DNA from: Methylocella silvestris
GTDB taxonomy: Bacteria > Pseudomonadota > Alphaproteobacteria > Rhizobiales > Beijerinckiaceae
Length of the DNA: 46,629 bases
Reading direction: 5' to 3'
NCBI RefSeq assembly: GCF_002891535.1
Contig: NZ_PDZR01000029.1
Location: 1 to 46,629, forward strand
Positions within the stretch are counted from its first letter, which is position 1, and every line of letters starts with the position of its first letter. The position numbers and the translations under genes are program-made. The notes under the pieces were generated by a model. That model did not search any database, was not told where the DNA came from, and saw only the letters and a program-made list of their open reading frames with translations. This document shows positions 22,379-46,069 of this stretch, piece by piece.

Positions 22379-22393
22379 GGACGTCCTTGCTGT

Positions 22394-22588
22394 TTATTCG
22401 TTAGTGAGGGGTTGCCGGGGCAGCGCTTTGAGGGCCCGCGGCGCGATGAAGCCGATCGCGGCCGGGTCAATCCCGTCCAGCGCCGCGATGCAAATGCGCA
22501 GAGCCAAGGGAATTCGCTGAAAGTGGGAAAAGCCGCTTTCATCGATCAGATCAATTACGTTGATCGCTTGCCCGCGCCGGTCCGTCAT
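22394..22588 (-). pseudogene. Remnant of an aromatic-acid MFS transporter
   Basis: A 64-residue frame starts at ATG 22588. Its residues 9-52 read as the N-terminus of an aromatic acid:H+ symporter (PcaK/MhpT-like): VIDLIDESGFSHFQRIPLAL, then a first membrane helix and LDGIDPAAIGFIAP. Immediately after this point the sequence changes to a short Pro/Arg-rich tail and stops. A complete transporter needs about 430 residues, so almost all of it has been deleted. It sits between galD and ligJ in the same orientation, where an uptake gene for the pathway substrate would be expected. Confidence 0.75.
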
Positions 22589-22617
22589 GGCGATCCCCTG
22601 CCCTTGCCGACTCTTGC

Positions 22618-23736: not shown

Positions 23737-23744
23737 GGCTGGCC

Positions 23745-24626
23745 CTATTTCTGTTTCGCGCGGAAGGCGTGGCGCTCGGCGATGGCGAGCGCAAGGGAGG
23801 GGTCGCGCCCCATATCCGTCAGCATAGCGGCGGCTTCGCGCATTTCGGCAGCGCGGCGCATGCCGTGCCTGGCGACGCGCGCGTCCATTTTCCCGGCAAG
23901 ATCGGCCCAGTCGGCGCCCTGGAAACTTTTGTTAAGCGAGGCGAATACATCCTCGGCCACGCCCCACTGCGCACAGGCGCTGGCGCTGTCGATGATCAGC
24001 GCCTCGATGCCCTTGATCATGATCGAGCGGCAGAGTTTGGTCGCTGAGGCGCGTCCGATCGTCTCCGCCACCGCGCGCAGGTTCATGCCGAGCGCGTTGA
24101 GCTTTTCCGAGAGTTCCGCCGCGCGCGGGCCGCCGGTCAGGATCTCGACCTTGATCCCCGCCCCGACCACGGGCGCCATCACCGCGCCTTCGACATAATC
24201 GAGGCCTTTTTCGGCAAGCGCCTGCGCAGCGCGGATCTTGGTCGAGGGCGAGGCGGAATTGACGTCGAACAAGATTTGGCCGGGCTTCAGATAAGCGATG
24301 GATTCCCGCGCCACCTGTTCCGCGGCGTCGGCGGTGACGGACGAAAAGATGATATCGGCGCCGGCGGCGGCTTCGGCTGCGTTCGCCACGAGCACAACGC
24401 CGCTCGCCTGAGCGGCCGCAAAGAGCGGAGCGGCGACCAATGGCGCCCCGCTCCCGCTCCTGAGAGCATCGACCTTGATGTCATAGGCTCGGATGGTCAG
24501 GCCATGTTTCTCGCGCAATTGGCGGGAGAACAGCTGGCCAACTTCGCCATAGCCGATAAAGGCAATTTGATCGGGCAAGGACAAGATCGTTTTCCGGGCT
24601 GAAGGCCCGCTAACTTGCCGCGTCAT
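23745..24626 (-). CDS. 6-phosphogluconate-dehydrogenase-like NAD(P)-dependent oxidoreductase
   Basis: The protein is 293 residues long from the ATG at 24626; a reading from 24719 adds non-conserved residues over the promoter region, and a TTG start nearer IAFIGYGEVGQ is also possible. It has a Rossmann motif (IAFIGYGEVGQLF), a substrate segment (FDVNSASPSTK) typical of beta-hydroxyacid dehydrogenase relatives, and the central EGAVMAPVVGAG. The C-terminus is helical (DUF1932-like). Homologous genes are familiar companions of lig/gal operons, but I know of no assigned step. As the first gene of the operon it is expressed with the ring-cleavage genes. Confidence 0.82.
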   Translation of the reverse strand: MTRQVSGPSARKTILSLPDQIAFIGYGEVGQLFSRQLREKHGLTIRAYDIKVDALRSGSGAPLVAAPLFAAAQASGVVLVANAAEAAAGADIIFSSVTADAAEQVARESIAYLKPGQILFDVNSASPSTKIRAAQALAEKGLDYVEGAVMAPVVGAGIKVEILTGGPRAAELSEKLNALGMNLRAVAETIGRASATKLCRSIMIKGIEALIIDSASACAQWGVAEDVFASLNKSFQGADWADLAGKMDARVARHGMRRAAEMREAAAMLTDMGRDPSLALAIAERHAFRAKQK

Positions 24627-24655
24627 CCGAGTGCAGACAAATGATGAGATTTGGC

Positions 24656-24675
24656 TGATTAGTGAACTAAAATCA
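24656..24675. promoter_or_regulatory. Candidate operator: TGATT-N10-AATCA inverted repeat
   Basis: A perfect 5-base inverted repeat with a ten-base spacer lies in an AT-rich patch 30 bases ahead of the first lig operon gene and beside the decayed LysR gene. The size and symmetry suit a LysR-type binding site (T-N11-A class). It is a single site read by eye, so it is only a candidate. Confidence 0.4.
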
Positions 24676-25080
24676 TCAATTTTGCTTCGGCTTGCGGAAT
24701 TGCGCCCCAGTGCGAGCATCGTCCTGGCGGCGCCCGAAATCGGCGCGTTTGCGCCGGGACGCCATGCCGAGCGTGCAGGCTATCGAGGGATTGCGGAACG
24801 GCAGCGCCGCTATGCCTTGGTCAGGGCGACATGATCGGCGACGAGCCCAACAGCCGCCGCGATGCGCCGAACCCTCTAACGGCGGCTCATTTTCAAAGTC
24901 GCTCCAGCCGAACCCTCCTGCGCCAGGGATGATCTTGCGGGCGGAGCATAACGCACTCTCCTTGCAAGTGGTTGTATCTCCGGGCGCCATCGCCCGGCGG
25001 ACAAGACAGTGATTCCGAACTCCGCCTCACCCCGCTTCTACGAGCTCGACGATCTCCAGAGCGGAATTGTCCCGGACGCT
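24676..25080 (-). pseudogene. LysR-type regulator remnant, paralogue of the gene at 29878
   Basis: Read across three frames, this minus-strand stretch parallels residues 125-275 of the intact LysR at 29878-30780. Matching pieces in order include DNSALEIVELVEAG, EFGITVLSAG, WSDFENEP, IAAAVGLVADHVALT and ALPFRNPSIACTLG. There are several frameshifts, an in-frame stop, and a loss of about 40 residues after FENEP. No HTH part was found. It lies directly upstream of the lig operon in the same orientation. The intact copy is 4.8 kb away on the other strand. Confidence 0.82.
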
Positions 25081-31242: not shown

Positions 31243-33480
31243 TTATTTCGCTTCAAGCGTCAGGCTCAGGCGAATCCCTATATCGGCGAGCAGCCGATCC
31301 TGATGACGGCCGAGATTGAGGCCTGTCAGGCGTGACACTTTACCGAGCCGATAGGCGATGGTCTTTTGATGCATTCCGAGCTTGGCGGCGGTCGCAATCT
31401 GCGAGCAGTCGCACTCGAAAAATGTCTGCATCGTCTCCAGGAGGATTTTACGCGACGGCTCGGGCTCCGACGTAAGCTCGCCAAGGATCTCCTCGCTGAC
31501 GCGCCTGATGTCCGTTTTGCCGCGCAAATTGATCAACAGGCCGAGCACGCCGATGTCGCTATAACAGGCGACCGGTTGGCCGCGGCGGTATTGCGCGACT
31601 TCGAGGGCTACGGTTCCTTCACGGAAACAGGCCGGCAGCTTTCGCAGATCGCCGCATGGTCCGCTGATGCCCGCCTTCAGCGAAAGGCCTGGAGTTTCAC
31701 GCCTGATGTCGCTGATCATGCGGGCCGCCGTGGCGCAAAGCGACTCCGCGTCAGCGGCCTTGCAGATCATGCGCAGCTGATCGCCGCGCAGGCCTACCAT
31801 ATGGGCGCTTTGTCCAAGCTCGGAGAGGCGGGCGCGGTCAAGCACGCGGTCATGGGTGGTTCCATCCGGCAGGCCGGCGCGGCCGTCCCGGCCACATCCA
31901 AAACCCTCCAGAGTGGCGACAAGCACGCAGACTTTTCCCCTGAAGGACACGTTCATTTCCCGCGCGCGATCGAGCGCCGCGGCGCTCACCATTTCATCGC
32001 CCTCGAGCAGATCCCAGAGCACCGCCTGCACCGTCTCTGCGCGCGCGCGGGCGGCGCTCCGACGTTCGAGCAACAGCATCGCGACCGCGAGCGAAACATG
32101 GCTTAGCGCTAATCTCGTCGTCTCGGATGGATCAGCTTCGCCGTGCCAGACAATCCAGCCAAGCAGTTCAGCGCCCGCGAGAACAGGCTGCGCCAGCACA
32201 TGGTCAGCGCCCGCGCCTTTGATGATCGCCTGATCGGGAATGCGATTAACTTTCTTGATGATGGACCGCGCCACATCAAGGATCGGACCCGCGCTTTCTA
32301 CGGGATCGGGCTGCGCGGTCTCGACGGCGAGATCGCGATCCAGCACCAGGACAGTGCCCGCCACATGCTCCGCAGTCGTCGCCGCCAGGACGGCAAGAGA
32401 GCGGCCGCTCAGCATCAGTTGAACGATTTTTTCCTGAAACTTGGCTGAATTCTCGATCGTGCTGCAACGTTGCGCGAGAGCGGCATTGGCGACCGCCAGC
32501 TCCGCGGCGGCGGAGGCGCGCGATTGCAAGAGCTCCGCATTGACGATCGCAAGTGAAGCAAGGCCGGCCAGCGCGAGAAGCAGGTTGGTATCCTGCTCGG
32601 TATAGGTTGAAGGCCGCCGCCGCCATACTTCGAGGACGCCAATGACCGCATCGCGCGAGAGAATGGGCGCGGCCGCCGCCGACCGCACCTTTTCAATCCG
32701 CGCGAGGGGAATGAAGTCAGGACTGATCGCATCGCTATCGACGTAATTGGCGACGACGCAAGGCTCGCTGGTGGCCAGCACGCGTCCGGCGACGCCCTTT
32801 CCGGGCTTCATGCGCAGCTTAGCCATCTCAACTGAAAAATGGCCGACGCAATTTCGCATCACCACCTCGTCGCCGTCGCGCATCAGCGCGCCGCAAATGT
32901 CCGAAGCAAGCAGCCGCTTGGTTTCATGACTGACGAGAAGCAGGATCTCCTCAATGTCGGAACTCTGGAGGATACGCACAGCAACGTTCTGAAGCGCCTG
33001 CATCTCCGTCGCGTTGCGGCTCGAACTGTCCTGGCGCTCGCCTGTCGCGATCGCAAGATCGATGCAATTTGCTGCGACGCCCAGCGCTTTCAGGCGGACT
33101 TCGCCGATAGCAGCGTGGTCAATCAGCGCCACGATGCTTCCGGGGCGGATAGGCGCCACAATGCGATTATCCGCGAGAAAAGGAGAGCCCGCAGAAATCT
33201 CCGGCTCGGGCGCGGGGTCGATGCGCGACGGGGCGTCCGGCATGTTGAGCTGACGCCACGGGCGCCAGCTTCCGGCGGCGTTGACGAGGATCCGCACGGC
33301 GCGCGCATCGGCAAACTCCAAAAGCGATCGTTCGGCCTCCGCAAACACCGAATGCGAACCGCCTTCAACCGCCGCCACGACGCGCCGCGTCAGCGCATCC
33401 AGAGCAAGAAACGGGTCGTCGCCGACTTCGGGCGTCGAACGACGCGCGGGCGCGCAGAGATCCAGTTTGGATGCAACCAC
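31243..33480 (-). CDS. GAF-domain PucR/CdaR-type transcriptional regulator
   Basis: The 745-residue protein starts at a GTG (33480) with GAGGAG seven bases upstream. It has a variable N-terminal part (1-165), a GAF-type ligand-binding domain at about 170-325 (SDIEEILLLVSHETKRLL, then GKGVAGRVLATSEP), a second sensor-like region (350-480), a CdaR-type central domain (about 490-640) and a C-terminal PucR helix-turn-helix (CSQIATAAKLGMHQKTIAYR, then LGKVSRLTGL). GAF-PucR activators such as those for phenol or polyol genes sense small molecules. It lies 82 bases downstream of the PPDK-like gene on the same strand and is the probable controller of the right-hand cluster. Confidence 0.88.
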   Translation of the reverse strand: MVASKLDLCAPARRSTPEVGDDPFLALDALTRRVVAAVEGGSHSVFAEAERSLLEFADARAVRILVNAAGSWRPWRQLNMPDAPSRIDPAPEPEISAGSPFLADNRIVAPIRPGSIVALIDHAAIGEVRLKALGVAANCIDLAIATGERQDSSSRNATEMQALQNVAVRILQSSDIEEILLLVSHETKRLLASDICGALMRDGDEVVMRNCVGHFSVEMAKLRMKPGKGVAGRVLATSEPCVVANYVDSDAISPDFIPLARIEKVRSAAAAPILSRDAVIGVLEVWRRRPSTYTEQDTNLLLALAGLASLAIVNAELLQSRASAAAELAVANAALAQRCSTIENSAKFQEKIVQLMLSGRSLAVLAATTAEHVAGTVLVLDRDLAVETAQPDPVESAGPILDVARSIIKKVNRIPDQAIIKGAGADHVLAQPVLAGAELLGWIVWHGEADPSETTRLALSHVSLAVAMLLLERRSAARARAETVQAVLWDLLEGDEMVSAAALDRAREMNVSFRGKVCVLVATLEGFGCGRDGRAGLPDGTTHDRVLDRARLSELGQSAHMVGLRGDQLRMICKAADAESLCATAARMISDIRRETPGLSLKAGISGPCGDLRKLPACFREGTVALEVAQYRRGQPVACYSDIGVLGLLINLRGKTDIRRVSEEILGELTSEPEPSRKILLETMQTFFECDCSQIATAAKLGMHQKTIAYRLGKVSRLTGLNLGRHQDRLLADIGIRLSLTLEAK

Positions 33481-33562: not shown

Positions 33563-36058
33563 TCATAAATTAAATACAGCCTCCTGTCCTAGCACAAGGC
33601 AAACAACCTCGCGGTTGCCGGGAGAAACGCCAAAAGTGCGGAAGCCTTCCCCATAGAGAGCACGAAGCAGGCCGAGATCGCAGCCGGCGCCGCAATCAAC
33701 GCCGACGCGTTCGGCAGCGCCCGACGCATTCGCCAGTTTGTTCAGGAGAGAGGCGAGAAACGGCTTCAGGGAGCCACGCGGATGCGCGCTCATGAGGCCT
33801 TGCTGGACATAGTCATCAAGCGCGGTCGCGACCAGATAATGCTCGGGCGTCAATCCATGCGCGGACAAAAGGATCTCGTCCATGTCGAGCCACAAGGTCG
33901 CGCCTTCTGCGAGCATTGCAGGCGCTGCGTCGAGGCACGCCACATTCTGAACGGTGACGCCGGCGGCGAGATTTGGAAACGCTTCGGCTTCATCGTGGAA
34001 ACGACGCCATTCGCCGACGTCTGTGACGCCGCCAAGGAAGACTGTGACAGGCGCGTCCCGATCCAAGGACGCCTGCGAAAGCCCATGAAGCAAGGGCCGG
34101 TAAAATGCCGGGCTGCCAAGCGGCAGAAACAGGCGCGGGTCGAGATCGGACCAATCGGGAATGAGTGAGCGGGCGCGTTCGGACGCCAGCCTCGGAAGGC
34201 GAATATGGTTTATCTGCGCCTCGGCGCATTCGAGAATCCTTGTGGCGAGCGTTCGCGCGATCTCCGCCAGGCCGCTTTCCGTCGTCGCGGCGTTTGCGCG
34301 TCCAATCCGGCTGACGCAATCGATAAGAGCTGCGATCGAGCCGGTCGCGAGGGCGAAATCGGTCATTCCGATCATTGCGCGCGCGGCCCCGGCCCCCTCG
34401 ATCTGCGCGGCCTCGCCGCCGTTATGAGTCACGGTAAAGATCGTCGCTCGCGACAGCGCGTCGGCTTTTTCGAGCAACCGAGATAAGCGTCGAGCGCCTT
34501 GAACCGGCGCGATGAGATCAATCGCGCCTTCGTAAACAAGACCGCTTGCGCCATCGATGGCGATCCAGTCGCCCTCGCAATAGCGTTTGCCGCCTGCGAC
34601 GAAAACCTTCTCGTTCGGATTGATCTCGATCGTCTCGCATCCAACGATGCAAGGCTTGTCGAGCGCCCGGGAGACGACGGCGGCATGGCTCAGCGCGCCT
34701 CCCCGCGCCGTCAATATGCCGCCGGCCGCGATCATGCCGCGAATGTCGAGCGGGCTCGTCGTCGGCCGCACGAGGATGACGGCCTCGCCCGCCGCCACGC
34801 GCTCGGCCGCGCGGTCCGAATCGAAAATCGCGACGCCGCTCGCCTGCCCGGGCGAAGAGCCGATGCCTTTTGCGATGCTTCGCGCGCCGGCGAGTTTGGC
34901 GGGATCGAACACAGGACGCAGCAGCCGTTTCACTTGCTCGGCGGAGACCCGCTTGAGGCCGGCCGCCGGGTCGACCAGGCCCTCTTCGACAAGATCCGCG
35001 GCGATGCGGACGGCAGCCTCGGCCGTGCGCTTGGCGGGGCGCACCTGAAGCAGATAGAGCCTGCCCGATTCGACGGTGAATTCGATGTCGACGGCATCGC
35101 CGTAGAGGCGCTCCAGCGTGCGCGCATGCTCGTCGAGCTTTGCGCGCAGATCGGCGTAGGCCCCCTCGCAGCGGGAGAGGTCGATCGGCGTCTTCGCCCC
35201 GGAGACGATATCCTCGCCCTGACGGCCAGCGAGATATTCCCCATAGAGTGCCGGATCGCCGTCATTCGGATTGCGTGAGAAGGCGACGCCGGAGCCGGAA
35301 TTATCGTCGGCGTTGCCAAAGACCATGGCCTGCACCGTGACCGCCGTTCCGAGTTCCTCGGCTATGCCGTGATGGAGGCGATAGGCTTTTGCCCGCGGGC
35401 TGTCCCAGGATGCGAAGACCGCCGAGATGGTTTGATCGAGCTGGGCGCGCGGATCCGTCGATGCGTCCTCCCCCTGTGCGGCGACGTAGGCGACGATCGC
35501 CGCTTCCAGCGCCTCGAGATCAATTCGTCCGGCGATTGCGGCCGCGCGCTGTGGCGCAATTTCCTCGGCGAGAACCTCACCGTCGAGGCCGAGCACGATC
35601 TCGGCGTACATCTTCCAGAATCGTAGCCAGCTATCGATGACGAATTCGCGCGCGCCGGCGCCAGCGATCATTTTGGCGGCCAGCTTCGCGTCGAGGCCCA
35701 AATTCAGAACGGTGTCCATCATTCCCGGCATGCTGACCTGCGCGCCCGAGCGGACCGACACGAGGAGAGGCAGCTCGCCATCCCCGGCGACGCCGAACCT
35801 CCGCCCCGCCTGCGCGCCGAGCGCCGCCATAGCCTCGTCGACCTGGCGGCGCAGAGCGCCCGGAAGACGCCGGCCGTTCGCGTGGAAGGCATGGAAGGCG
35901 TCAGTGCCGATGGCGAAAGCCGGCGGCGCGGGGATGCCCGCCGCGACCATCCGGGCTAGCCCGGTCGCCTTGCCGCCAAATCTCCTGCCATCGCTCGGAT
36001 CGAGCTCGCGGATGTCCCAGACGAAGCAGGCCGCCGTCGTTTCAAGCACCTCAGACAT
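33563..36058 (-). CDS. Pyruvate-phosphate-dikinase-like phosphotransferase with diverged C-terminus
   Basis: The 831-residue protein has three parts. Residues 20-345 are a canonical PPDK ATP-grasp domain (SVRSGAQVSMPGMMDTVLNL, VQAMVFGNADDNSGSGVAFS, ending LLQVRPAKRT). Residues 395-520 are a swivelling phosphohistidine domain with the phosphoryl carrier His458 in LTARGGALSHAAVVSR. Residues 530-831 occupy the place of the PEP/pyruvate barrel but lack its GLCRTEHMF, GTNDLTQ and SCSP motifs; the corresponding places read AARAMIGMTDFAL, LWLDMDEILL and FGVSPGN. Usual PPDK has about 880 residues. It should form phospho-His from ATP, but the acceptor is probably not pyruvate (inference). The ATG overlaps the upstream gene by eight bases. 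Confidence 0.85.
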   Translation of the reverse strand: MSEVLETTAACFVWDIRELDPSDGRRFGGKATGLARMVAAGIPAPPAFAIGTDAFHAFHANGRRLPGALRRQVDEAMAALGAQAGRRFGVAGDGELPLLVSVRSGAQVSMPGMMDTVLNLGLDAKLAAKMIAGAGAREFVIDSWLRFWKMYAEIVLGLDGEVLAEEIAPQRAAAIAGRIDLEALEAAIVAYVAAQGEDASTDPRAQLDQTISAVFASWDSPRAKAYRLHHGIAEELGTAVTVQAMVFGNADDNSGSGVAFSRNPNDGDPALYGEYLAGRQGEDIVSGAKTPIDLSRCEGAYADLRAKLDEHARTLERLYGDAVDIEFTVESGRLYLLQVRPAKRTAEAAVRIAADLVEEGLVDPAAGLKRVSAEQVKRLLRPVFDPAKLAGARSIAKGIGSSPGQASGVAIFDSDRAAERVAAGEAVILVRPTTSPLDIRGMIAAGGILTARGGALSHAAVVSRALDKPCIVGCETIEINPNEKVFVAGGKRYCEGDWIAIDGASGLVYEGAIDLIAPVQGARRLSRLLEKADALSRATIFTVTHNGGEAAQIEGAGAARAMIGMTDFALATGSIAALIDCVSRIGRANAATTESGLAEIARTLATRILECAEAQINHIRLPRLASERARSLIPDWSDLDPRLFLPLGSPAFYRPLLHGLSQASLDRDAPVTVFLGGVTDVGEWRRFHDEAEAFPNLAAGVTVQNVACLDAAPAMLAEGATLWLDMDEILLSAHGLTPEHYLVATALDDYVQQGLMSAHPRGSLKPFLASLLNKLANASGAAERVGVDCGAGCDLGLLRALYGEGFRTFGVSPGNREVVCLVLGQEAVFNL

Positions 36059-36671
36059 CGCGCGGGCGTCCTATCAGAGCAAGAATATCCTCGTGAAATT
36101 CGAACCAGATGTTGTGCATGGAATCCACCGTCGGCTTGCAGACGAAATCGTCGTCGCCGCGGTCGGCGCGCGCCATCGCCCGTTCGAAGCGCTTGGCGTA
36201 TTTTTCATAACGGGACACGTCGGTGGCGAGCTGGCGCAAGGTCCGGATCATCCGCTCGACGAGTTTCGTCATCTTTTCGCGGGCGCGATCGTCTCCGGCA
36301 GACGTCTGCCAGTCGGAAACCGCCTTGATGAACTGCTGGTTGAGGCTTGTTTCGAATTTGTCGTACCAGGCGATGACGCCGGCCTGCGCGCGCAATGGCG
36401 CATAGACCTCGCGGTAGAAGGCGAGCACTTTTGCGGTCCCTTTTTCGTCAAGGACGAAAGAGCCGCCAAGATCGATCACAGCCTCCTCGCCCTGCTGCCG
36501 CTTCAGGATGCCCTCAACCTCGGGCTCTGCGAGTTCGGCGACCTCGACGACATGCTGTGGCGTCGCCATCTTGTGCAGATAGATGGCGTTCAAGACGTCA
36601 AATGTGTCGTCGTCGATCAAGGGCGCGACCGGCGGCGATTCCATCGATGCGCGATTGCCGGAAACCATCAT
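36051..36671 (-). CDS. Unrecognised 206-residue protein of the PPDK-like operon
   Basis: I do not recognise this protein. The N-terminal 90 residues could be a small winged-helix-like or regulatory fold (DDDTFDVLNAIYLHKMATPQ, VEGILKRQQGEEAVIDLGGS). The rest is strongly helical and charged (KMTKLVERMIRTLRQLATDV, SRYEKYAKRFERAMARADRG). No signal peptide or membrane helix is present, so it is cytoplasmic. GGAG lies seven bases before the ATG. It starts three bases after the 469-residue gene ends and overlaps the PPDK-like start by eight bases, so all three are made together, as expected for subunits of one complex. Confidence 0.8.
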   Translation of the reverse strand: MMVSGNRASMESPPVAPLIDDDTFDVLNAIYLHKMATPQHVVEVAELAEPEVEGILKRQQGEEAVIDLGGSFVLDEKGTAKVLAFYREVYAPLRAQAGVIAWYDKFETSLNQQFIKAVSDWQTSAGDDRAREKMTKLVERMIRTLRQLATDVSRYEKYAKRFERAMARADRGDDDFVCKPTVDSMHNIWFEFHEDILALIGRPRDV

Positions 36672-36674
36672 GAC

Positions 36675-38084
36675 TCAACTCCAGAAATATTTCGAGCGGC
36701 GCAGATCCGTTCCATCCGGGAACGGAAGATAGCCCTCCCCCGAAAATATCTTCTGCGGCACGACCGCCTGCGCGAAGCCCCGCTTGGTGATGTCGTAATA
36801 ATAGTTGGCGACGCGTTGATCGATCTCCCAGAAATCATAATCGACGCAGGCCTTCTCATAGGTGCCGGCAAGGCGCAGATGCGGCAGGATCATGTCGATG
36901 TAATAGGTGTACATGCCGTTGGTGATAAGCTGGCGCCGGGACATGCGGGCGAGCTTGCTATAGAGCCCCATTGTCGCCTGCTGGATGCCTTCGACCCGCT
37001 TCTCAAGCTTGTCAATCGCGATCGGATAGATTTCCGACATCGGCGTGTTCCACTTTTCGCGCACGAAAATCGCGCCGCCGACGATGTGCTCGATGTAGTT
37101 CTTTGGCCTTGTGAATGTGGTCGAGATATCGTTGACTCTGATCTCCTCGAGGCTCATCGCCTCCGCATCGATCACCAGCAACAGGCTGTAGCAATGAGGA
37201 ACGCCGGCGTTGTCGCAGGCGTCGCTCCAGTGATAAACCTCCTCATTCGTGAAAAGATCGCGGATGATGAGAATCTTGCCGTCCGGGAGCTCATAGGGGC
37301 CCGTGTCGCCGAGGCCGAGGCGGTTGTCGAAATGGTCCAGGAACGCGAGCAATTCAGCCGATGCGTTGAACCTCGTGAACTTCTGGTGCTTGTCGCTGCC
37401 CGGCTCGAAATATTCGATATGGGAGGCCAGCGTCTCGATGACGTCCTTGTCGTGGATCGCGCAGCGATAGCGATCCTGAGAATTCAGGATATAGCCATCC
37501 TGCCGCTTGCCCCACAGGACGCGTTGCATGAATTTCAGGATTTCGTTGCTTTCCTCGACATAGTCGTTCGGCTTGATCGCCTCAAGAGCAAGCAATCCGC
37601 AGCGGCCCATGCCGAAGCCGACGGCGCCGATGCACCAGTCATGCACGGCGTTGACCTTGATGCCGATCTCGCGCCGCGCCGTCGCGCCGATATTGATCAC
37701 GCCTTCCGCGCCGATCTCGTCGGTGGTCATGCGCAAAATCTCGGGCCAACGGTAGAATTCGTTCATGAACGCGAGGATTTCATATTCCTGGCGGGGGATC
37801 ATGCCGGAAACGCCCTCCGTTGCGCGCATAACGAGGACGTCCCAGATATTCCAGGCGAGATAATTGTTGAGGTCGTTCAGCTCATTGAGCGTGAACTGAC
37901 CTTTAAGGACGTCCTCGCGGCTGACTTTTTCAAGCACCTTCGACTTGGCGCGGGAGCGCATGATACGATCGCCGACGATGCCGTCGCGCACAGGTTCCTG
38001 GCCCTTGAAATTGCCGACATAGGCGAGATCCTGAAACCGGAGCCCGTCATCGCCTTCGGAATAACGCTTTTTATAGCTGCTCAT
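36675..38084 (-). CDS. Unrecognised 469-residue protein of the PPDK-like operon
   Basis: I do not recognise this protein. It is soluble, without signal peptide or membrane segments, and rich in Tyr, Trp and acidic residues. Conserved-looking blocks include NIGATARREIGIKVNAVHDW (118 onwards), GFGMGRCGLLALEAIKPND and the Tyr-rich C-terminus (YTYYIDMILPHLRL, VANYYYDITKRGFAQ). GAGG lies seven bases before the ATG. It is placed between a free-standing phosphohistidine domain and the 206-residue protein, both a few tens of bases or less away. The context suggests a substrate-binding or catalytic subunit of a phosphotransferase, which is inference only. Confidence 0.82.
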   Translation of the reverse strand: MSSYKKRYSEGDDGLRFQDLAYVGNFKGQEPVRDGIVGDRIMRSRAKSKVLEKVSREDVLKGQFTLNELNDLNNYLAWNIWDVLVMRATEGVSGMIPRQEYEILAFMNEFYRWPEILRMTTDEIGAEGVINIGATARREIGIKVNAVHDWCIGAVGFGMGRCGLLALEAIKPNDYVEESNEILKFMQRVLWGKRQDGYILNSQDRYRCAIHDKDVIETLASHIEYFEPGSDKHQKFTRFNASAELLAFLDHFDNRLGLGDTGPYELPDGKILIIRDLFTNEEVYHWSDACDNAGVPHCYSLLLVIDAEAMSLEEIRVNDISTTFTRPKNYIEHIVGGAIFVREKWNTPMSEIYPIAIDKLEKRVEGIQQATMGLYSKLARMSRRQLITNGMYTYYIDMILPHLRLAGTYEKACVDYDFWEIDQRVANYYYDITKRGFAQAVVPQKIFSGEGYLPFPDGTDLRRSKYFWS

Positions 38085-38132
38085 TGTTTTTCCTCGCCCT
38101 GTGCTGTTGCTTTTGCTTGTTATATTGTTGCT

Positions 38133-38549
38133 TCAATCAAGCTCGACGATCTTGCCATGATCGACGTCGCTGCAATCAAGTCGCACGCGCTTGCCTTGGA
38201 GACGGCTGATCATCGCGCCAAAATGCTCCTCATTATCGCCGCCGGTGACATAGCGTGTGTCGCTGTCGACGAGATGAGCCGTCATGACGCAGGGCATTTG
38301 AAATTCGCGCGACAGAATTCCAAGGTGCGATTCCGGCGCGCCCGACAGCGTGATGACGCCAATCGCGCCCATGGTCAGCGCAGGCGAAAGAAAAGTCGTC
38401 GTGCCCCCCTGAACGAGCAATATGTGCTCCTTCAGCTTTCCGCTCTGGATCAGTTTGATCACGGATTGCGGATTTGGCAGATAGACAACCTCCCCTTCGG
38501 ACGATTTTTTTGTTTCGAAGCTGTTGTATCCTTGCGCTATGACTTTCAT
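38133..38549 (-). CDS. Free-standing PEP-utiliser mobile (phosphohistidine swivelling) domain
   Basis: The 138-residue protein is essentially one swivelling domain: an N-terminal beta-rich part, a Gly-rich segment VQGGTTTFLSPALTMGAIGV and the phosphohistidine motif with His75 in LSGAPESHLGILSREFQMPC, matching GGxTSHAAILAREFGIP of PPDK and PEP synthase. It has no ATP-binding or PEP-binding domain of its own. AGGAGAGG lies just before the ATG. It is 48 bases upstream of the 469-residue gene in the same operon. A likely role is a mobile phosphoryl carrier charged by the PPDK-like partner (inference). Confidence 0.85.
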   Translation of the reverse strand: MKVIAQGYNSFETKKSSEGEVVYLPNPQSVIKLIQSGKLKEHILLVQGGTTTFLSPALTMGAIGVITLSGAPESHLGILSREFQMPCVMTAHLVDSDTRYVTGGDNEEHFGAMISRLQGKRVRLDCSDVDHGKIVELD

Positions 38550-38599
38550 TGTTTCCTCTCCTTTTTGTTGGTGTCGCTGGACCGCATTTGCTTGCGGCT

Positions 38600-39406
38600 C
38601 TATTCAGCGCGAAGTCCTTTCAGGCGCCTGACGGCGGATTTTTCAAGGACCGGTTCAAGGTCCGTCTGCGGCGGCGGCTCTACGTCGCCGGCGCGTTCCT
38701 CGACCGTGTCCGACTGCGGCGGCGGCAGCGCCCAGGAGATGATCTCCTGCGGCCAGACCGCGACTTTCTCCGCTCCCGCTTCCATAAGCTCGCTTGCCTT
38801 GTGCATTCCCCATGAGACGCCAAGCGTTCGAACGCCGCATTCGCGCGCATGCCTAACGTCGCACACCGTGTCTGTCACAACTGCGACCTCATCGGGTTCG
38901 AAGGGTTTCGGCGTACGCTCCTGATAGGCGGGTGAGCCGATGCGCAGCGTGGCGTATGACGGGTCGGCGAGGAATTGGCGGATGCTTTTGCGTTTGTCAG
39001 GCTCGATATCGCCTGCGAAGACATGGGCTATGCATTGGGCGATACGGGCGTCGTCGGCGATCCGCCGGATCGCCTCGAGTGCGTTGCTTGAAACGATGCC
39101 GAGAACGCAACGCGCCGCGAGAGTCCTGACGACATCCGCGATGCCCGGCACCAGCGGCGGATTATATTCCTTGCGCAGAAGCTCGAGGAAATGATCGATC
39201 GCCGCGACGCCGCGTTCCTGGTCGCCGCAGGCCTGCGGGACGGCCACGAACAGATTGTCCCGAAAGAGCTTGAAGAATTGCTCGCGGTCATCGATGCCGA
39301 GCGCGAATTTCTTGTTGGTCCGTTCGAACAGCGCCCAGGACGCGTCCCGGGTCTGCACGAGCGTTCCATCGAGATCGAACAGAATCGCACGGATTTGTCT
39401 CGCCAT
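38600..39406 (-). CDS. HAD-superfamily phosphatase-like hydrolase
   Basis: The 268-residue protein starts at ATG 39406, five bases after the preceding gene stops; a longer reading overlaps that gene. HAD motif I is FDLDGTLVQT with the nucleophile Asp and general acid Asp, motif II lies in LGIVSSNALEAI, and motif IV in VVTDTVCDVRHA. The cap region is the phosphoglycolate-phosphatase type. The last 40 residues form a non-conserved, Pro-rich tail. It may dephosphorylate an intermediate made by the neighbouring phosphotransferase, or provide housekeeping repair of a dead-end phosphoester. Confidence 0.85.
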   Translation of the reverse strand: MARQIRAILFDLDGTLVQTRDASWALFERTNKKFALGIDDREQFFKLFRDNLFVAVPQACGDQERGVAAIDHFLELLRKEYNPPLVPGIADVVRTLAARCVLGIVSSNALEAIRRIADDARIAQCIAHVFAGDIEPDKRKSIRQFLADPSYATLRIGSPAYQERTPKPFEPDEVAVVTDTVCDVRHARECGVRTLGVSWGMHKASELMEAGAEKVAVWPQEIISWALPPPQSDTVEERAGDVEPPPQTDLEPVLEKSAVRRLKGLRAE

Positions 39407-39411
39407 CGACT

Positions 39412-40404
39412 TCAAGCCGCCGCGGCGATGCGCGTCGCCGGGATCGAGTTCAACCGGGTCAGTTGCGGTAGTTCGAAGAAGTCCTGAATCTCGCCATATC
39501 CGACAAGACCATTCGTCTCCCACCGTCCGAGCACGTTAAATGAAACCATATTGGCCCAGCATTGCCACGGAAAGCTCGTCAGCCCCTTGGCGGAAAGCCT
39601 CCACTCCCGATCGGCGCGATCGACGAGCAAAAGCTCGACGCTCTCGGCGTAACGGTCGCGCCGGCGCACCGCCTGGCCGGAGCCCGCCTTGAGACCGAAG
39701 ATTTCGCCGCGCTCCACCACATAACCGTGTGTCAAGGAGAGCCTCAGCCCGTTCTGCTCAGGATCAAAACTGAAGATGGCGTGAACCGCGAGATCTTTCG
39801 AGAAATGCGCATGCAGCCAGCTCATGTTGGGGGCGCCGCGCTCCGGCCGCGGACCCCAGCTGTGGTCCATGGTGGAAATGCAGTCGATCGGAATCGTCCG
39901 GCCGCGCAGGGTCACGCTGCCCTGGTAGTGACCCGTCTGGTCAAAATGGCCATTGTAGGCGGTTCCCCAGGCGAAGTCGCCGTCATGGCGGCCAACCATC
40001 GGATCCATGTCCGGATCGTGAATATCGAATGCAGGCATGATGGATCGGTAGACGACGTCGATCAAAGTGCCTTCGCCGTCGTCGAATTTGATCTCCCAGA
40101 CCATGTTCGGCTCAACGCAGCGGATGTGCAGCCCATTGGCGAGGCGGTAGTCGAGCAGACTGCAGTCAGGCGCCATAGGAATGACGGACTGATAGTCGAC
40201 GTAATCGGCCTCCCACGGCGTGATCGCAAAGCCGGAATTCATGCAGATGGTTGAGTTGACGGTGCGCAGATTGGTGCGAAACAAAGCGTATACGCCAATA
40301 TTCAATCTCTCCTCGGCATTGTAAAAGCCAAAGAAATTGGTTTCCGCCCAATTCAGTTTGTCGGGATCAGCTGGATGGAATTCGGCGTCCGCGGCCCCAA
40401 TCAT
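39412..40404 (-). CDS. AttH/CrtC-like lipocalin-fold protein
   Basis: The 330-residue protein starts at ATG 40404 with GGGGAG upstream; a TTG seven codons earlier is less likely. Beta-rich sequence includes FFGFYNAEERLNIGVYALFR near the N-terminus and the characteristic CISTMDHSWGPRPERG motif in the middle, as in AttH/CrtC (hydroxyneurosporene synthase-like) and DUF7064/7065-type proteins. CrtC hydrates a terminal isoprene double bond, so a role on a hydrophobic or isoprenoid-like substrate is possible. No catalytic assignment can be made from sequence alone. It precedes the HAD gene. Confidence 0.7.
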   Translation of the reverse strand: MIGAADAEFHPADPDKLNWAETNFFGFYNAEERLNIGVYALFRTNLRTVNSTICMNSGFAITPWEADYVDYQSVIPMAPDCSLLDYRLANGLHIRCVEPNMVWEIKFDDGEGTLIDVVYRSIMPAFDIHDPDMDPMVGRHDGDFAWGTAYNGHFDQTGHYQGSVTLRGRTIPIDCISTMDHSWGPRPERGAPNMSWLHAHFSKDLAVHAIFSFDPEQNGLRLSLTHGYVVERGEIFGLKAGSGQAVRRRDRYAESVELLLVDRADREWRLSAKGLTSFPWQCWANMVSFNVLGRWETNGLVGYGEIQDFFELPQLTRLNSIPATRIAAAA

Positions 40405-40687
40405 GCATTTCTCCCCTGTTTCCAAAATCTTGCTTTTTGAGATCGTGACGGTGAAACTAGCGGCGATCCATGGTCCCGCGCCATATCTTTAGCAGATAAT
40501 AACGGCGCTCAACTTTATCCGACGAGGAGGCCGATCGTTCGTTTATTCCGCCGCCGTCAGAATGCGCCGCTGCTTCAGGTGGAGGCGTCGACCATCCCTC
40601 CCGCCAGATGGAGCGCCCGCGTCAGGATGGCGCGAAGGCGGCCGCGTTTCGACAGCGACGGTTGGATCACGGCGATTTCGGCGCCGC
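40405..40687. other. Gap between the ALDH and AttH-like genes
   Basis: About 280 bases on the minus strand separate the two halves of the right-hand cluster, enough for an internal promoter of the second half; the AT-richer part at 40440-40540 fits this. A frame running on from the aldehyde dehydrogenase end shows no start codon and no domain that I recognise. Confidence 0.35.
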
Positions 40688-42112
40688 TCAGGCCCCATTG
40701 ATGACGAGCGTCTTCGCGCTGGTGTACTCGGCAAGCCCCTCAAGCGCGTTTTCGACGCCAAGACCAGACTGTTTATGTCCCCCGAAGGCAACATGCGGCG
40801 AGAAGGTATGCGCCTCGTTCACCCACACGGTTCCGGCGTCGATCCGCTCCGCGACCCGCCGCGCCGCCTTGACGTCCTTGCCCCAGACGGAGGCCGCAAG
40901 GCCGTATTCGGTATCGTTGGCGCGCGCGATCACGCCGTCAATGTCATCGAATTTGAGGAGGGGGAGGACCGGGCCGAACGCCTCTTCAACGACGACGCGG
41001 CTGTTCTCCGGCGGGTTGTCGATAATCGTCACGGGCACAAAGAAGCCTTTCTGGTCGGTGATCTCTCCGCCAAGCAGAAAGCGCAGACCGCTGGCCCTAG
41101 CGTCGGCGAGCAGGTTCTTCAGTTTTTCAAACTGCATCCTGTTCTGTATTGGACCAAGGTCGGTGCCTTGCAGGGAGCCGTCGCCGACTTTCACCGTTTT
41201 CGCATAGGCGACCAGTTCGGCGGCGAGGTCGTCGTAAATATCGGCGTGGATGTAAAGGCGCTTTGCGGCGACGCAAAACTGCGCGCTGTTCTGGAATGCC
41301 GCCCAGAACAGCTTTTCTGCGGTTTCCTTTACGTCGACGTCGGGAAGGACGATCGCAGGATCATTGCCGCCGAGTTCGAGGGTCACGCGCTTGATATTAC
41401 CCGACGCCGCGGCCATGATCTTGCGGCCGGTTTCGGTCGAGCCTGTAAAGCTGATCTTGCGAATGTCCCGATGGGTCGTCAGCCAGACGCCAAGATCATT
41501 ACCGCCGGATACCACATTCAGAACGCCGGGAGGCAGAACCCCGCGCAGAATTTCACCAAGCTTAAGCGTGCAAAGGGGCGTATAGGGCGAGGGCTTCAGG
41601 ACCATCGTGTTGCCGGCGACGAGCGCCGGCGCAATCTTCCAGATTGCGAGCAGTACAGGAAAATTCCACGGCGTAATTCCGGCAATGACGCCAAGCGGCT
41701 CGCGACGGGTTTCCACCAGACGCGTCTCGCTCTCCTCGCAGACATGAACGGGCAACTCCTGTTTGGCGATTTCCCGGCACCAGATCACCGATCCGTAAAT
41801 CTCCCATTCGGCGCCCTTGCGCGGCTTACCCTGCTCGCACGTGAGCAACCGCATAAAGTCCTCGGCATGCGCTTCGATCAGGTCGCCGATTTGTGCAACC
41901 AGCGCCTGGCGCTCCGTGATCGGCCGCGCGCTCCAGGCCGGAAAGGCGCGCTTGGCCGCGGCGACGGCGGCCTCGAGCTGCTCCCGGCCGGCGTCAGGGA
42001 CCGTCGCTATGACTTCCTCGGTCGCCGGGTTGAAAGCCTCGAATGTCGCCGCCGATGTCGCAGCGGCGCCGTCGATCGACATCGTATAATCGGAAAAAAA
42101 GTCGATGCTCAT
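40688..42112 (-). CDS. NAD(P)+-dependent aldehyde dehydrogenase
   Basis: The 474-residue protein has the family motifs: ITPWNFPVLLAIWKIAPALV, SFTGSTETGRKI, the general base Glu in VTLELGGNDP and the catalytic Cys in NSAQFCVAAKRLY. It oxidises an aldehyde to its acid in the cytoplasm. It is nearest in wording to the succinate-semialdehyde or benzaldehyde dehydrogenase branch, but the substrate cannot be fixed. It lies 12 bases downstream of the acyl-CoA synthetase gene and with the alcohol dehydrogenase forms an alcohol to aldehyde to acid to acyl-CoA chain. Confidence 0.93.
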   Translation of the reverse strand: MSIDFFSDYTMSIDGAAATSAATFEAFNPATEEVIATVPDAGREQLEAAVAAAKRAFPAWSARPITERQALVAQIGDLIEAHAEDFMRLLTCEQGKPRKGAEWEIYGSVIWCREIAKQELPVHVCEESETRLVETRREPLGVIAGITPWNFPVLLAIWKIAPALVAGNTMVLKPSPYTPLCTLKLGEILRGVLPPGVLNVVSGGNDLGVWLTTHRDIRKISFTGSTETGRKIMAAASGNIKRVTLELGGNDPAIVLPDVDVKETAEKLFWAAFQNSAQFCVAAKRLYIHADIYDDLAAELVAYAKTVKVGDGSLQGTDLGPIQNRMQFEKLKNLLADARASGLRFLLGGEITDQKGFFVPVTIIDNPPENSRVVVEEAFGPVLPLLKFDDIDGVIARANDTEYGLAASVWGKDVKAARRVAERIDAGTVWVNEAHTFSPHVAFGGHKQSGLGVENALEGLAEYTSAKTLVINGA

Positions 42113-43657: not shown

Positions 43658-44782
43658 TTAGCTCCCGACCGTGACGGCGTCCGGGATCAAGACGGCTTTC
43701 AGCACTTCCCCCGATTCCGAGGCGCGGGCAGCAGCTTCGATTTCCGTCAGAGGATATTTCCGGATCAGCCGGTCGAAGGGAAACCGCCCCTGCCGCCACA
43801 GCTCGATCAATTGCGGGATGAAAATATCGGGAATGCTGTCGCCCTCGATAATTCCACGCACCGCGCGGCCGAAGAGAATCCCATTCATGTCGAGCATCAT
43901 TTCCGTGCCGAGCGGCGCGACGCCGATGATTCCGCAAATACCAGTCAACCTCAGGCAGTCGACCGCCTGGCGCGCCACTTTCGGCAGGCCCGTGCATTCA
44001 AGCGAAAACTGCGCACCCTCACCGCTCGTCAGCGCTCTGACAGCGTGAACCGCGTCATCCCGACCGGCGTTGACGACGTGCGTCGCTCCGAGCTCCATCG
44101 CCAGATTCAGCCGGCGATCGTTCAAATCGACGACGATGATCTGGGCGCATCCGACCACTTGCGCCGCCATCGCCGCGGCAAGTCCAACCGACCCCGCGCC
44201 GAAGATCGCAATGCTGGTCCCTGCCCCGGGCCTTAGCGCGTTGATGACCGCTCCGGCGCCAGTCTGAACGCCACAGCCCAGCGGCCCCATAATCTCAAGG
44301 GGTACATCGTTTGGAATTTTGACGACGTTCCGTTCGGTCGCCAGCGCATATTCGCCGAATGAAGATTGCGAGAAGAAATAGCCGCTGACCCGGCTGCCAT
44401 GGGCGTCGCAGCAGGGGCTAGATCCGTCAGCCCTGGCGCCGCTGAAATTATGCGCATAGAGGTCGGGGCAATAGCCGTATCGTCCGCTCTGGCAATTGAC
44501 GCATTTACCGCAGCTTGCAAAGGTCAACACCACATGGTCGCCGACGGCGACCTTATTCACCTGAGAGCCAATCTTCTCAACGACTCCGGCGCCTTCATGA
44601 CCAAGAACGGCCGGCAAGGGCGTCGGAAAATATTGATCGCGGACCACAAGGTCCGTGTGGCACATGCCGACGCCGGCGATCCTGACGAGGACCTCGTCGC
44701 CCCGCGGATCATCAAGATCAATCATCTCGACGAGGAATGGTCCGCCTTTCTCGCGGACCACAGCAGCTTTCATCCGTAGCAT
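43658..44782 (-). CDS. Zinc-dependent alcohol dehydrogenase, aryl/allylic-alcohol type
   Basis: The 374-residue medium-chain dehydrogenase starts at ATG 44782 with GGAG upstream. The catalytic zinc ligands lie in VGMCHTDLVV and GHEGAGVVEKIG, with a third Cys in the middle of the chain (GPLGCGVQTG). Structural zinc Cys residues are in CGKCVNCQSGRYGYC, and the NAD motif is AIFGAGSVGLAAAMA. This resembles XylB-type benzyl alcohol and geraniol dehydrogenases. It is the first gene of the downstream set and probably oxidises the alcohol formed or released by the system. Confidence 0.92.
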   Translation of the reverse strand: MLRMKAAVVREKGGPFLVEMIDLDDPRGDEVLVRIAGVGMCHTDLVVRDQYFPTPLPAVLGHEGAGVVEKIGSQVNKVAVGDHVVLTFASCGKCVNCQSGRYGYCPDLYAHNFSGARADGSSPCCDAHGSRVSGYFFSQSSFGEYALATERNVVKIPNDVPLEIMGPLGCGVQTGAGAVINALRPGAGTSIAIFGAGSVGLAAAMAAQVVGCAQIIVVDLNDRRLNLAMELGATHVVNAGRDDAVHAVRALTSGEGAQFSLECTGLPKVARQAVDCLRLTGICGIIGVAPLGTEMMLDMNGILFGRAVRGIIEGDSIPDIFIPQLIELWRQGRFPFDRLIRKYPLTEIEAAARASESGEVLKAVLIPDAVTVGS

Positions 44783-45130
44783 TTTCACGCGCTCCACTTG
44801 ATTATTTTTGTGTATGCGTGCGGGATTTGCCGCGCAGCTTTCCTGCGAACAAATTTCCTCCCCGTTTCGAAACGCAGAATGAAGCGCGGCAGGCGAACCG
44901 CCTATTGCCTGCAGGGATAAAAAGGGGGCGTCGCTTTATCAGTCAAAGACAGATGAACTTTCTTTTCCGCGGTCTTGAGCTTGCGAGCGGCGCCAGAGAC
45001 GCTCCAGGGCGCCTCCGCCGGCGCGCGGAGGGCCGCAGCCAAAAAAACGCCGCGCCCCATCTCTGGAAGCGCGGCGAATAAGCGGACTGCTGGGGAGGCG
45101 CAGCGCCGCGATGAGCAGAAAGTCGGGCGC
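44783..45130. other. Intergenic region upstream of the alcohol dehydrogenase
   Basis: About 350 bases hold the promoter of the alcohol-dehydrogenase operon (AT-rich patch near 44795-44815) and the terminator of the MetA-type channel gene at 45041-45076. I looked for a -24/-12 sigma-54 pair and saw none convincing. Confidence 0.4.
45041..45076 (-). terminator. Rho-independent terminator of the channel gene
   Basis: On the minus strand an 8-base-pair GC stem (CGCCGCGC with GCGCGGCG) and a 13-base loop is followed directly by seven T. It begins 55 bases after the stop of the MetA-type channel gene at 45131, so that gene ends in its own transcript, separate from the alcohol dehydrogenase operon. 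Confidence 0.85.
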
Positions 45131-46069
45131 TCAGAACGCCTTCATCAGCCGGAGATTGACGCGATTGGCTTCTCTCAGGCCGTTATCAACCGAAATATCC
45201 CGCCCGTAGAGCGCCATAATATTCCAGCTCGGGGCGAAATTCCACGCGAAGCCCACCTTGAAATTGACTGTGCTCAGGCTGTCGCTGCTGACGGTAGAGT
45301 TAACCTTTGTCTGGCCCCCGGCGTAATAGGTCGCGCCTAACCTTATGTCGAAATCAGGGGTTACGGCATATTTGAACCAGCTCTGAAGCGAGACGAGCGG
45401 CAGCTGCTGTAGCGTCTGCCCCCTCGCCCCGTAAGAGGTGTTGTTGCCATAGAATGTTACGTCCCCTACCAGCTGAAGGACGAGCTCCTTGACGAAGACA
45501 GGTATCACCCAGCCGGCCTGCAACGCGCCTTTCCAACGATTCTCTCCAAGATTCAACCCATTGCTCGAGTTGTATGTTCCAATTGGAACATAGAGCACTG
45601 GCGTAATCCCGAAAAACAAATTCGACTCAGGCTTGTTGTAGAGCCAGATGGTTGACGCCAGGATCAGGTCGCCGACGCCGGTCGTCTGGCCAAGCGCGCC
45701 AAGATCGCCACTACCCTGCAAATGCCCGAAGGGGAGCAGGAACTGCGGGTCCGCGATAAAGGGCCCTATTTCGACGAAATGTGCATAGCGGAGAATTCCC
45801 ACCTCGGAATCGAGCGTTCCATTCCCGACCCTCTGGCCGGCGGAGTAGTTGGCGTCACGATTGACGAATTGCCCATAGAGGAGCCCGAGATTTGTGCCCG
45901 CTGGAAGCGCCCCCGCGCTGTAGTCGTCGGCATCGACGTCGAGTGCTCTGGCGCTCGGCGCATATAGCCCAGAAATCGCGAGCAAAGCCGCGAAGACGCC
46001 CAACCGGAATATACTTAGAGTGCCCGCTCTTTCTTGGTTTATGGCAAATTTCTCGAGACTCGTCCTCAT
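45131..46069 (-). CDS. Outer membrane MetA-pathway phenol-degradation-like channel
   Basis: The 312-residue protein has a signal peptide (cleavage near SARALDVDADDYSAG) and a beta-barrel pattern typical of the Phenol_MetA_deg family (SphY-like): DDYSAGALPAGTNLGLLYGQ, GVGDLILASTIWLYNKPESN, LFFGITPVLYVPIGTY and an aromatic C-terminal Phe. Members sit beside aromatic or terpene degradation genes and are thought to admit hydrophobic substrates. GGGAG lies ahead of the ATG and a terminator follows. It is the likely uptake channel for the substrate of the right-hand cluster. Confidence 0.88.
   Translation of the reverse strand: MRTSLEKFAINQERAGTLSIFRLGVFAALLAISGLYAPSARALDVDADDYSAGALPAGTNLGLLYGQFVNRDANYSAGQRVGNGTLDSEVGILRYAHFVEIGPFIADPQFLLPFGHLQGSGDLGALGQTTGVGDLILASTIWLYNKPESNLFFGITPVLYVPIGTYNSSNGLNLGENRWKGALQAGWVIPVFVKELVLQLVGDVTFYGNNTSYGARGQTLQQLPLVSLQSWFKYAVTPDFDIRLGATYYAGGQTKVNSTVSSDSLSTVNFKVGFAWNFAPSWNIMALYGRDISVDNGLREANRVNLRLMKAF

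Follow-up and report, generated by a model that had tools for sequence, protein, structure and literature searches.

A gene cassette of Methylocella silvestris that may encode an ATP-driven kinase and lyase for small tertiary alcohols

What is a relative of pyruvate, phosphate dikinase (PPDK) doing in a gene run that also encodes a free phosphohistidine domain and two proteins of no recognizable family? The question is raised by a stretch of 46,629 nucleotides from the alphaproteobacterium Methylocella silvestris (assembly GCF_002891535.1, contig NZ_PDZR01000029.1, positions 1 to 46,629), referred to below as the window. The original prediction, made from the DNA letters alone, held that these genes specify a split phosphotransferase, different from phenylphosphate synthase, that uses ATP to phosphorylate an alcohol, enol or ketone. 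That proposal proves largely right and, for an alcohol, is supported in its main lines by the anatomy of the proteins rather than by a demonstrated reaction. On balance we lean towards reading the cassette as an ATP-driven multi-subunit kinase coupled to a lyase, with a small tertiary alcohol as substrate; this would probably be 2-methyl-3-buten-2-ol (MBO), rearranged to prenol. The genes at the centre of this reading are as follows.

33563-36058, minus strand: putative PPDK-like energy-coupling subunit, 831 aa; ATP-grasp domain, swivel (His458, window 34685-34687) and phosphoenolpyruvate (PEP) barrel without the active-site motifs; Pfam PPDK_N, PEP-utilizers
36051-36671, minus strand: p206, a family-less subunit, 206 aa; 8-base overlap with the PPDK-like gene
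36675-38084, minus strand: p469, proposed substrate-binding and phosphoryl-acceptor subunit, 469 aa; 3-base gap to p206
38133-38549, minus strand: free phosphohistidine swivel, 138 aa; His75 (window 38325-38327); Pfam PEP-utilizers; 48-base gap to p469
38600-39523 (open reading frame; chosen start 39406), minus strand: HAD phosphatase; Pfam HAD_2
39412-40425 (open reading frame; start more likely 40404), minus strand: AttH-like protein, Pfam DUF7064/DUF7065; proposed tertiary-phosphoester lyase or isomerase

The coordinates confirm the minus-strand run of free swivel, 469-residue, 206-residue and PPDK-like genes, with its overlaps and gaps of a few bases, from which the original prediction started. 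The HAD start at 39406 is likelier than that at 39523 and removes an artificial overlap.

The cassette and its proteins

Do these genes belong together? A pattern-based scan of about 85,000 species genomes yielded 84 relatives and, after its cap, 79 loci; being based on patterns, it sets a lower bound. Neighbour counts refer to the stretch fetched around each locus, several stretches being short or cut at contig ends, and genes were called by a codon-position GC gene finder, suited to GC-rich DNA with shadow open reading frames, whose frames are sometimes over-long. Carriers are found among Alpha-, Beta- and Gammaproteobacteria, Actinobacteria and metagenome-assembled genomes (MAGs) of other groups. 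A swivel gene or domain adjoins p469 in all 79 loci; p206 is present in 72/79, the PPDK-like gene in 65/79, HAD and AttH-like genes in 60/79 each, and a relative of the GAF/PucR regulator encoded next to the cassette in 32/79. The exact order swivel-p469-p206-PPDK is kept in 59/79 loci, with contig ends truncating several of the other 20. Of the 14 loci that lack a PPDK-like gene, six (L026, L055, L070, L090, L091 and L094) were searched genome-wide, and each genome proved to contain one, with the swivel motif kept and the PEP motifs gone; it is full length in four and a frame of about 610 aa in G832 and G833.

p469 is a rare accessory gene. With the window's own genome counted, it occurs in 2/99 relatives, in 9/385 genomes of the class and in 1/398 of the phylum, the last being the window's own. 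p206 is likewise found in 9/385 class genomes, eight of them in common with p469 (hypergeometric 7e-15), the discordant genomes being G132 (a weak 82-residue match) and G438, whose loci L111 and L112 were left out of the analysis. Given the order kept in 59 loci and this co-occurrence, the arrangement is far beyond chance, and the genes are confirmed to form a very tight cassette: the four travel together, as the original prediction implied. The position that it assigned to the HAD and AttH-like genes, preceding the four, was also correct; that they are members of the set escaped it. A DNA search for the cassette in plasmids returned one partial match.

Among further occurrences, second p469 copies in L101 and L102 (G302, G194) show no swivel or p206 match beside them, and the one in L102 adjoins an old-yellow-enzyme-like FadH protein, a UbiA prenyltransferase and carboxylase/hydratase genes. 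The cassette contig of L066 is filed as a Klebsiella pneumoniae MAG and is perhaps mis-binned.

The PPDK-like protein aligns with solved PPDK over residues 27-558 and is 40% identical, over 533 aligned columns, to the true PPDK encoded elsewhere in the same genome. NCBIfam places it firmly on the dikinase side, with 524 bits for TIGR01828 versus 83.5 and 108 bits for the PEP-synthase models TIGR01418 and PRK06464. The true PPDK keeps all five PEP/pyruvate motifs, whereas none of 62 full-length cassette frames keeps any of the five (Arg, Glu, Asn/Asp and Cys motifs) and all 62 keep the phosphohistidine motif. These frames comprise 55 from the scan together with the window, L014, L015, L098, L099, L100 and L105; of 64 frames longer than 780 aa, L062 and L085 fail to align to the end and were left out. 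The swivel histidine is present in 75/75 loci in which that stretch is aligned. With the PEP-site motifs gone, a pyruvate dikinase function was rejected, and the protein is probably not a normal pyruvate dikinase, in keeping with the original prediction. Short versions devoid of the barrel occur in L016, L087, L103 and L104. Separately, short PPDK-like frames of 538-619 aa without the PEP barrel are found in L097 (G000:C65), L117, L118 and L121, that is, in this and other genomes; they resemble VadK in make-up. The free swivel retains His75 in 89/89 loci with a match. Two phosphohistidines on separate chains suggest a relay.

Neither p469 nor p206 matches any Pfam or NCBIfam family, which bears out the earlier failure to assign them. 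For p469, single-sequence and profile searches of PDB sequences are equally empty. The AlphaFold model of p469, built on a 42-sequence alignment, is confident (mean predicted local distance difference test score, pLDDT, 91.6) and mixes helix and sheet; Foldseek returned no PDB match at E<=0.001 (best E 0.82, template modelling (TM) score 0.09), and no match at that threshold was obtained against a viral fold library. To judge from the model, the fold is apparently new, no solved relative having been found. Thirteen positions (R87, E90, R98, E102, K143, H251, D253, R255, D260, R275, D276, E281 and R404) are invariant in all 42 aligned rows and look like a phosphate- and metal-binding site. p206 picks up nucleoporin coiled coils (E 5e-5), a likeness taken as chance. 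In Methylibium PM1 the protein is labelled a MarR regulator; this label was dropped because p206 shares one frame with p469, behind it, in Gordonia and R. opacus. In these two carriers swivel, p469 and p206 form one frame of about 790 aa, a natural fusion indicating that the three belong together. EcKL/APH kinases, which resemble ecdysteroid kinases, flank the frames of the fused type (L016, L085, L087, L088), an assignment checked with Pfam for L016 and L085; a cytochrome P450 stands beside the fused frame in L016 and L088, and an L085 neighbour shows a weak DUF7065 match, below cut-off.

The AttH-like protein, also modelled with confidence (pLDDT 91.0), finds its closest fold in 25-phosphosteroid lyase, with five chains from three entries (best E 6.3e-15, TM 0.67/0.63 to 9g4c), followed by kievitone hydratase and then AttH, Phm7 and CghA. 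Kievitone hydratase acts on prenyl groups. The original label of AttH-like thus stands, and what it missed is the resemblance to a tertiary-phosphoester lyase. In the HAD phosphatase the first Asp of the DxD motif is conserved in 62/65 loci. A Y_phosphatase3 (PF13350) relative accompanies the cassette in 20/79 loci; its copy in PM1 (L125 22446-23297) adjoins an oxidoreductase/Rieske pair and is 34.5% identical to that in L038. Might it be an alternative phosphatase?

Microcompartment genes and the wider locus

The original prediction did not foresee the genomic setting of most relatives. Shell genes of bacterial microcompartments (BMC-H, BMC-T, EutN) lie in the fetched stretch of 57/79 loci (L091 by a BMC-P match alone) and also in L014. 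EutJ is found in 45/79 loci, a CoA-acylating-type aldehyde dehydrogenase (ALDH) in 51/79 and its alcohol dehydrogenase (ADH) in 24/79; the reference proteins match BMC, EutN_CcmL, EutJ, a CoA-acylating acetaldehyde-dehydrogenase-like ALDH, ADH and a malate-dehydrogenase-like protein. The window's own genome contains no match to the BMC domain PF00936, the EutN family PF03319 not having been searched there. In the available main text of a microcompartment catalogue (PMC8217296) the words dikinase and EutJ are absent, and its supplements may already label this shell type.

A link between cassette and shell is suggested by the HAD phosphatase. Its tail after motif IV measures 118-201 residues in 41/41 shell loci versus 48-85 in 12/13 others, the exception being L062 (172), which lies at a contig end with its upstream side not visible; four of 58 frames without motif IV (L017, L055, L090, L091) were left out of this count. 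Judged by eye, the tail in shell loci seems to consist of a linker with a basic patch and a terminal amphipathic stretch, and the mean hydrophobic moment is 0.68 in shell loci versus 0.53 in the others and 0.53 in shuffled sequences. The C-termini of p469 and of the AttH-like protein show no such difference. The long tail is read as a putative encapsulation tail, by which the phosphatase would be placed in the lumen. In the window the HAD tail is 85 aa long despite the missing BMC-domain match in its genome, and is perhaps a vestige.

In the window the cassette is accompanied by dehydrogenase, ligase and regulator genes. All cassette genes lie on the minus strand and follow, in transcription order, ADH, AMP ligase, ALDH, AttH-like, HAD, swivel, p469, p206, PPDK-like and GAF/PucR regulator. 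The flanking features are as follows.

31243-33480, minus strand: regulator with GAF, GGDEF-like and PucR helix-turn-helix parts; Pfam
40688-42112, minus strand: ALDH; PF00171
42125-43651, minus strand: AMP-forming acyl-CoA ligase; Pfam
43658-44797, minus strand: zinc ADH; Pfam
45131-46069, minus strand: Phenol_MetA_deg family protein; Pfam; possible outer-membrane uptake channel

An ALDH copy at least 50% identical to that of the window recurs beside several cassettes, and the Phenol_MetA_deg family is also represented near the cassette in L018, L081, L092, L098 and L105. Antisense to the cassette runs a 1095-aa plus-strand open frame (35637-38924), taken for a shadow open reading frame. A separate catabolic-looking cluster occupies window positions 19603-24719 on the minus strand, with two Amidohydro_2 proteins, PrpF and a DUF1932/NAD-binding protein. 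No repeats were found in the two gaps examined.

Substrate, mechanism and rival readings

Which alcohol would such a system act upon? Three lines, namely carboxylase-type neighbours, a plasmid of PM1 and the literature on MBO, converge on a small tertiary alcohol ending as 3-methylcrotonyl-CoA. In G009 (L105), whose p469 is 98.5-99% identical to that of the window, a carboxyltransferase, a biotin carboxylase and a CitE-type lyase are inserted on the same strand between the ALDH and AttH-like genes, and Endobacter (L019) has the same three in the same place. In G362 (L098), acyl-CoA-carboxylase-type genes stand beside the cassette on the opposite strand. In Pseudomonas NFACC02 (L081) the cassette is followed by a carboxyltransferase, a hydratase (PRK05674, 526 bits), a biotin carboxylase and a 3-hydroxy-3-methylglutaryl-CoA (HMG-CoA) lyase (PRK05692, 470 bits, over cut-off); no acyl-CoA dehydrogenase occurs among the gene models in between. 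It is the company of these genes that suggests a methylcrotonyl-CoA carboxylase. The window's genome carries a similar three-gene run on contig C4.

On the PM1 plasmid, positions 480093-509313 hold AttH-like, p469, a 153-aa gene, swivel, p206 and a regulator, then a mutase operon, and after it a tyrosine-phosphatase-family gene, an oxidoreductase, a Rieske protein and a PPDK without the PEP site. Thus 30 kb suffice for all cassette parts except an intact HAD, together with a Rieske oxygenase gene. One source lists Mpe_B0555 as tert-butyl alcohol hydroxylase and gives Mpe_B0538, B0539 and B0541 as 2-hydroxyisobutyryl-CoA (HIBA-CoA) mutase parts and ligase (PMC4517660); to judge by order and annotation, these would be the Rieske and mutase-operon genes seen on the plasmid. 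For PM1, A. tertiaricarbonis and P. putida MB-1, an article of 2016 raises the possibility that MBO, a plant volatile that is also a fuel-oxygenate metabolite, is turned into prenol by isomerisation, and gives the enzymes as not characterised (PMC4791888). In the literature searched, to which subscription papers mostly do not belong, no paper was found that describes the cassette or assigns the MBO step.

A precedent is offered by anaerobic cholesterol degradation, in which a kinase phosphorylates a tertiary C25 alcohol and a lyase then eliminates the phosphate; the C25 phosphoester is about as energy-rich as ATP (kinase Keq 0.34), and the kinase hardly accepts tert-butanol, small tertiary alcohols reacting at <0.1% (PMC8449060). 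Since a tertiary phosphoester can match ATP in energy, extra driving force would be needed, and dikinase chemistry would provide it; by our own energetic argument a donor of the PPDK type, which can make PEP, would be strong enough for such esters. In the proposed scheme ATP would donate a phosphate to a swivel histidine by way of the PPDK-like subunit, and the free swivel would then bring its phosphohistidine to p469, which, with p206, would phosphorylate the tertiary hydroxyl. The protein resembling 25-phosphosteroid lyase would next ionise the C-O(phosphate) bond, and with allylic MBO the charge could shift to C1, giving prenyl phosphate or prenol; the HAD phosphatase would free prenol. ADH, ALDH and ligase, whose families are established, would convert it to 3-methylcrotonyl-CoA, bound for the leucine route; their place may be taken, in relatives, by a microcompartment whose aldehyde dehydrogenase is of the CoA-acylating type. 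Among tertiary alcohols, the allylic ones appear to be the kind from which ADH, ALDH and ligase could receive a primary alcohol.

A number of results weigh against this scheme. The AttH-like protein and 25-phosphosteroid lyase are only 15-16% identical in the fold alignments, a purely structural likeness; a profile search of PDB sequences retrieved no chain of that lyase at E<=10, and the product of the lyase is an alkene, not an allylic alcohol. Carboxylase genes are near only 2/79 loci (plus L098, L105 and the second p469 copy in L102). In NCBIfam the relatives' carboxylases score as generic mmdA-like (far below cut-off) and accC-like (below cut-off), the CitE- and MaoC-type neighbours resemble RipC and RipB of the itaconate pathway, again below cut-off, and the distant locus L103 has a carboxylase that instead resembles pyruvate carboxylase. 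The shell-type ALDH of L014, the only one tested, scores best with acetaldehyde dehydrogenases, suggesting a C2-C3 aldehyde, and cytosolic-type ALDH and shell genes coexist in L054, L056, L059, L071, L078 and L014, which one simple pathway fails to explain. HAD is reduced to a 98-aa fragment in L017, L090 and L091; 16/79 loci, several on short contigs, have neither a good HAD match nor Y_phosphatase3 in the fetched stretch, and no HAD was found in the stretches around the fused type (L085-L088). Finally, none of the window's ADH, ALDH and ligase is matched in the PM1 stretch L017.

Rival readings differ in how much of the scheme they retain. The linalool and saturated-alcohol alternatives share its general mechanism. 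A larger tertiary terpenoid alcohol, for example linalool passing through geraniol to geranyl-CoA, would involve the same chemistry, and the L081 hydratase matches PRK05674, 'gamma-carboxygeranoyl-CoA hydratase', over cut-off; however, the HMG-CoA lyase of the same locus suits a C5 leucine route, the setting in PM1 is one of C4-C5 tertiary alcohols, and microcompartments usually enclose small volatile aldehydes, so that this reading is unlikely. It is equally improbable that phosphorylation and elimination serve the use of saturated C4-C5 tertiary alcohols, or of 2-methylpropane-1,2-diol derived from compounds like fuel ethers. Methylmalonyl/HIBA-CoA-mutase-type genes do occur near the cassette in three of the 79 loci (L032, L090, L091) and in L017 and L103, in both Actinobacteria and Proteobacteria, a Rieske protein is nearby in PM1, and Schaefer is said to have described in 2011 the release of isobutene and isoamylene by strains PM1 and L108. 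Elimination, though, would yield a volatile alkene and leave HAD, ADH and ligase without a use, and in 76/79 loci the fetched stretch shows no mutase gene of this type.

A variant of the two-component phenolic dikinases (phenylphosphate synthase, CreHI, HpeHI), acting on phenol or an aryl ketone, is quite unlikely. The ATP-grasp and swivel parts are alike in kind, a Phenol_MetA_deg protein is close by, and HpeHI is reported as a working split dikinase (PMC12167813). Yet the cassette ATP-grasp is of PPDK type (524 bits for TIGR01828 against 84-108), and the phenolic enzymes are described as resembling PEP synthase (PMC12167813); p469 has no PDB fold match at E<=0.001, rifampin phosphotransferase included, and acyl-CoA-carboxylase and HMG-CoA-lyase neighbours together with a tertiary-phosphoester-lyase fold are unsuited to phenols. 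The phenol carboxylation route had been set aside in the original prediction and was rejected here too: Pfam, applied to 20 of the window's proteins, shows no such carboxylase, and no rifampin-domain fold was recognized in p469. Phosphorylation of acetone or an enol, considered since PEP is itself an enol phosphate, was dropped because the phosphatase would undo it and the lyase-like fold suggests a tertiary phosphoester. Least probable of all is a phosphorelay of PPDK descent that regulates proteins, on the model of mycobacterial VadK, a PPDK derivative reported to autophosphorylate and regulate metabolism (PMC13400623). A barrel-less PPDK-like protein is also encoded in the window's genome, but the cassette keeps constant company with catabolic enzymes, phosphatase, lyase-like protein and shell genes, and the dense invariant charged residues of p469 are active-site-like.

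The results against the scheme (rare carboxylases, an acetaldehyde-type ALDH, mixed loci, HAD fragments, PM1 without ADH, ALDH and ligase) have tempered our confidence. A phosphorylating system for small tertiary alcohols, as a general mechanism, is likely; that MBO to prenol is the actual reaction falls somewhat short of an even call, and our leaning towards the whole was set between the two. Tertiary alcohols resist direct oxidation, and the cassette represents a concrete, clonable candidate for the conversion of MBO to a primary alcohol. It also offers a functional handle on one microcompartment type and exposes, in p469, a protein fold for which no solved relative was found.

Comparison with known systems

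The cassette draws its parts, in variant form, from known kinds; what the literature found does not describe is their assembly, the fold of the acceptor and the microcompartment tie. More speculatively, the system may represent a new class among small-molecule kinases: a phosphorelay of two histidines fed by ATP, made up of PPDK-derived donor and free swivel, an acceptor of unseen fold that binds a tertiary alcohol, and a lyase-fold protein that shifts phosphate along an allyl system. In most carriers found it would feed a microcompartment with the phosphatase as signature cargo, and it could be the missing MBO-to-prenol system.

We know of no description of linalool isomerase or linalool dehydratase-isomerase that involves ATP or phosphate, and no model named for linalool isomerase is among the matches listed for ten window proteins (Pfam, NCBIfam). 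The net change, a 1,3-shift of the hydroxyl of a tertiary allylic alcohol, would be the same (PMC4791888). In its logic the proposed system is close to 25-hydroxysteroid kinase and 25-phosphosteroid lyase of Sterolibacterium denitrificans, in which phosphate activates a tertiary alcohol and C-O cleavage follows. The lyase has its overall fold in common with the AttH-like protein, with no detectable sequence homology. The kinase is described as a 43-kDa monomer of the phosphotransferase family with a ternary-complex mechanism (PMC8449060), whereas the cassette has four subunits and two phosphohistidine domains; unlike that single-chain enzyme, the window's ten proteins include no APH/EcKL match in Pfam.

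With PpsAB, CreHI, HpeHI and rifampin phosphotransferase the cassette shares ATP-grasp and swivel parts split over chains (fused in rifampin phosphotransferase), a swivel with a catalytic histidine (here His75, in 89/89 loci) and, presumably, a small-molecule hydroxyl as acceptor. It differs from them in its PPDK-type donor with a swivel of its own besides the second, free one, and in the additional p206, HAD and lyase-like proteins. Its acceptor has no fold match and is apparently unrelated to the rifampin-binding-domain type, as described for HpeH, although PpsA and HpeH sequences were not compared and failure to find a match carries less weight than a contrary match would. From PPDK itself the donor departs as a paralogue that shares ATP-grasp and swivel and has shed the PEP/pyruvate-site motifs. 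As in the catabolic microcompartments known as metabolosomes, shell genes are present, near most of the relatives found, and here the candidate cargo is different: a HAD phosphatase fed by a kinase.

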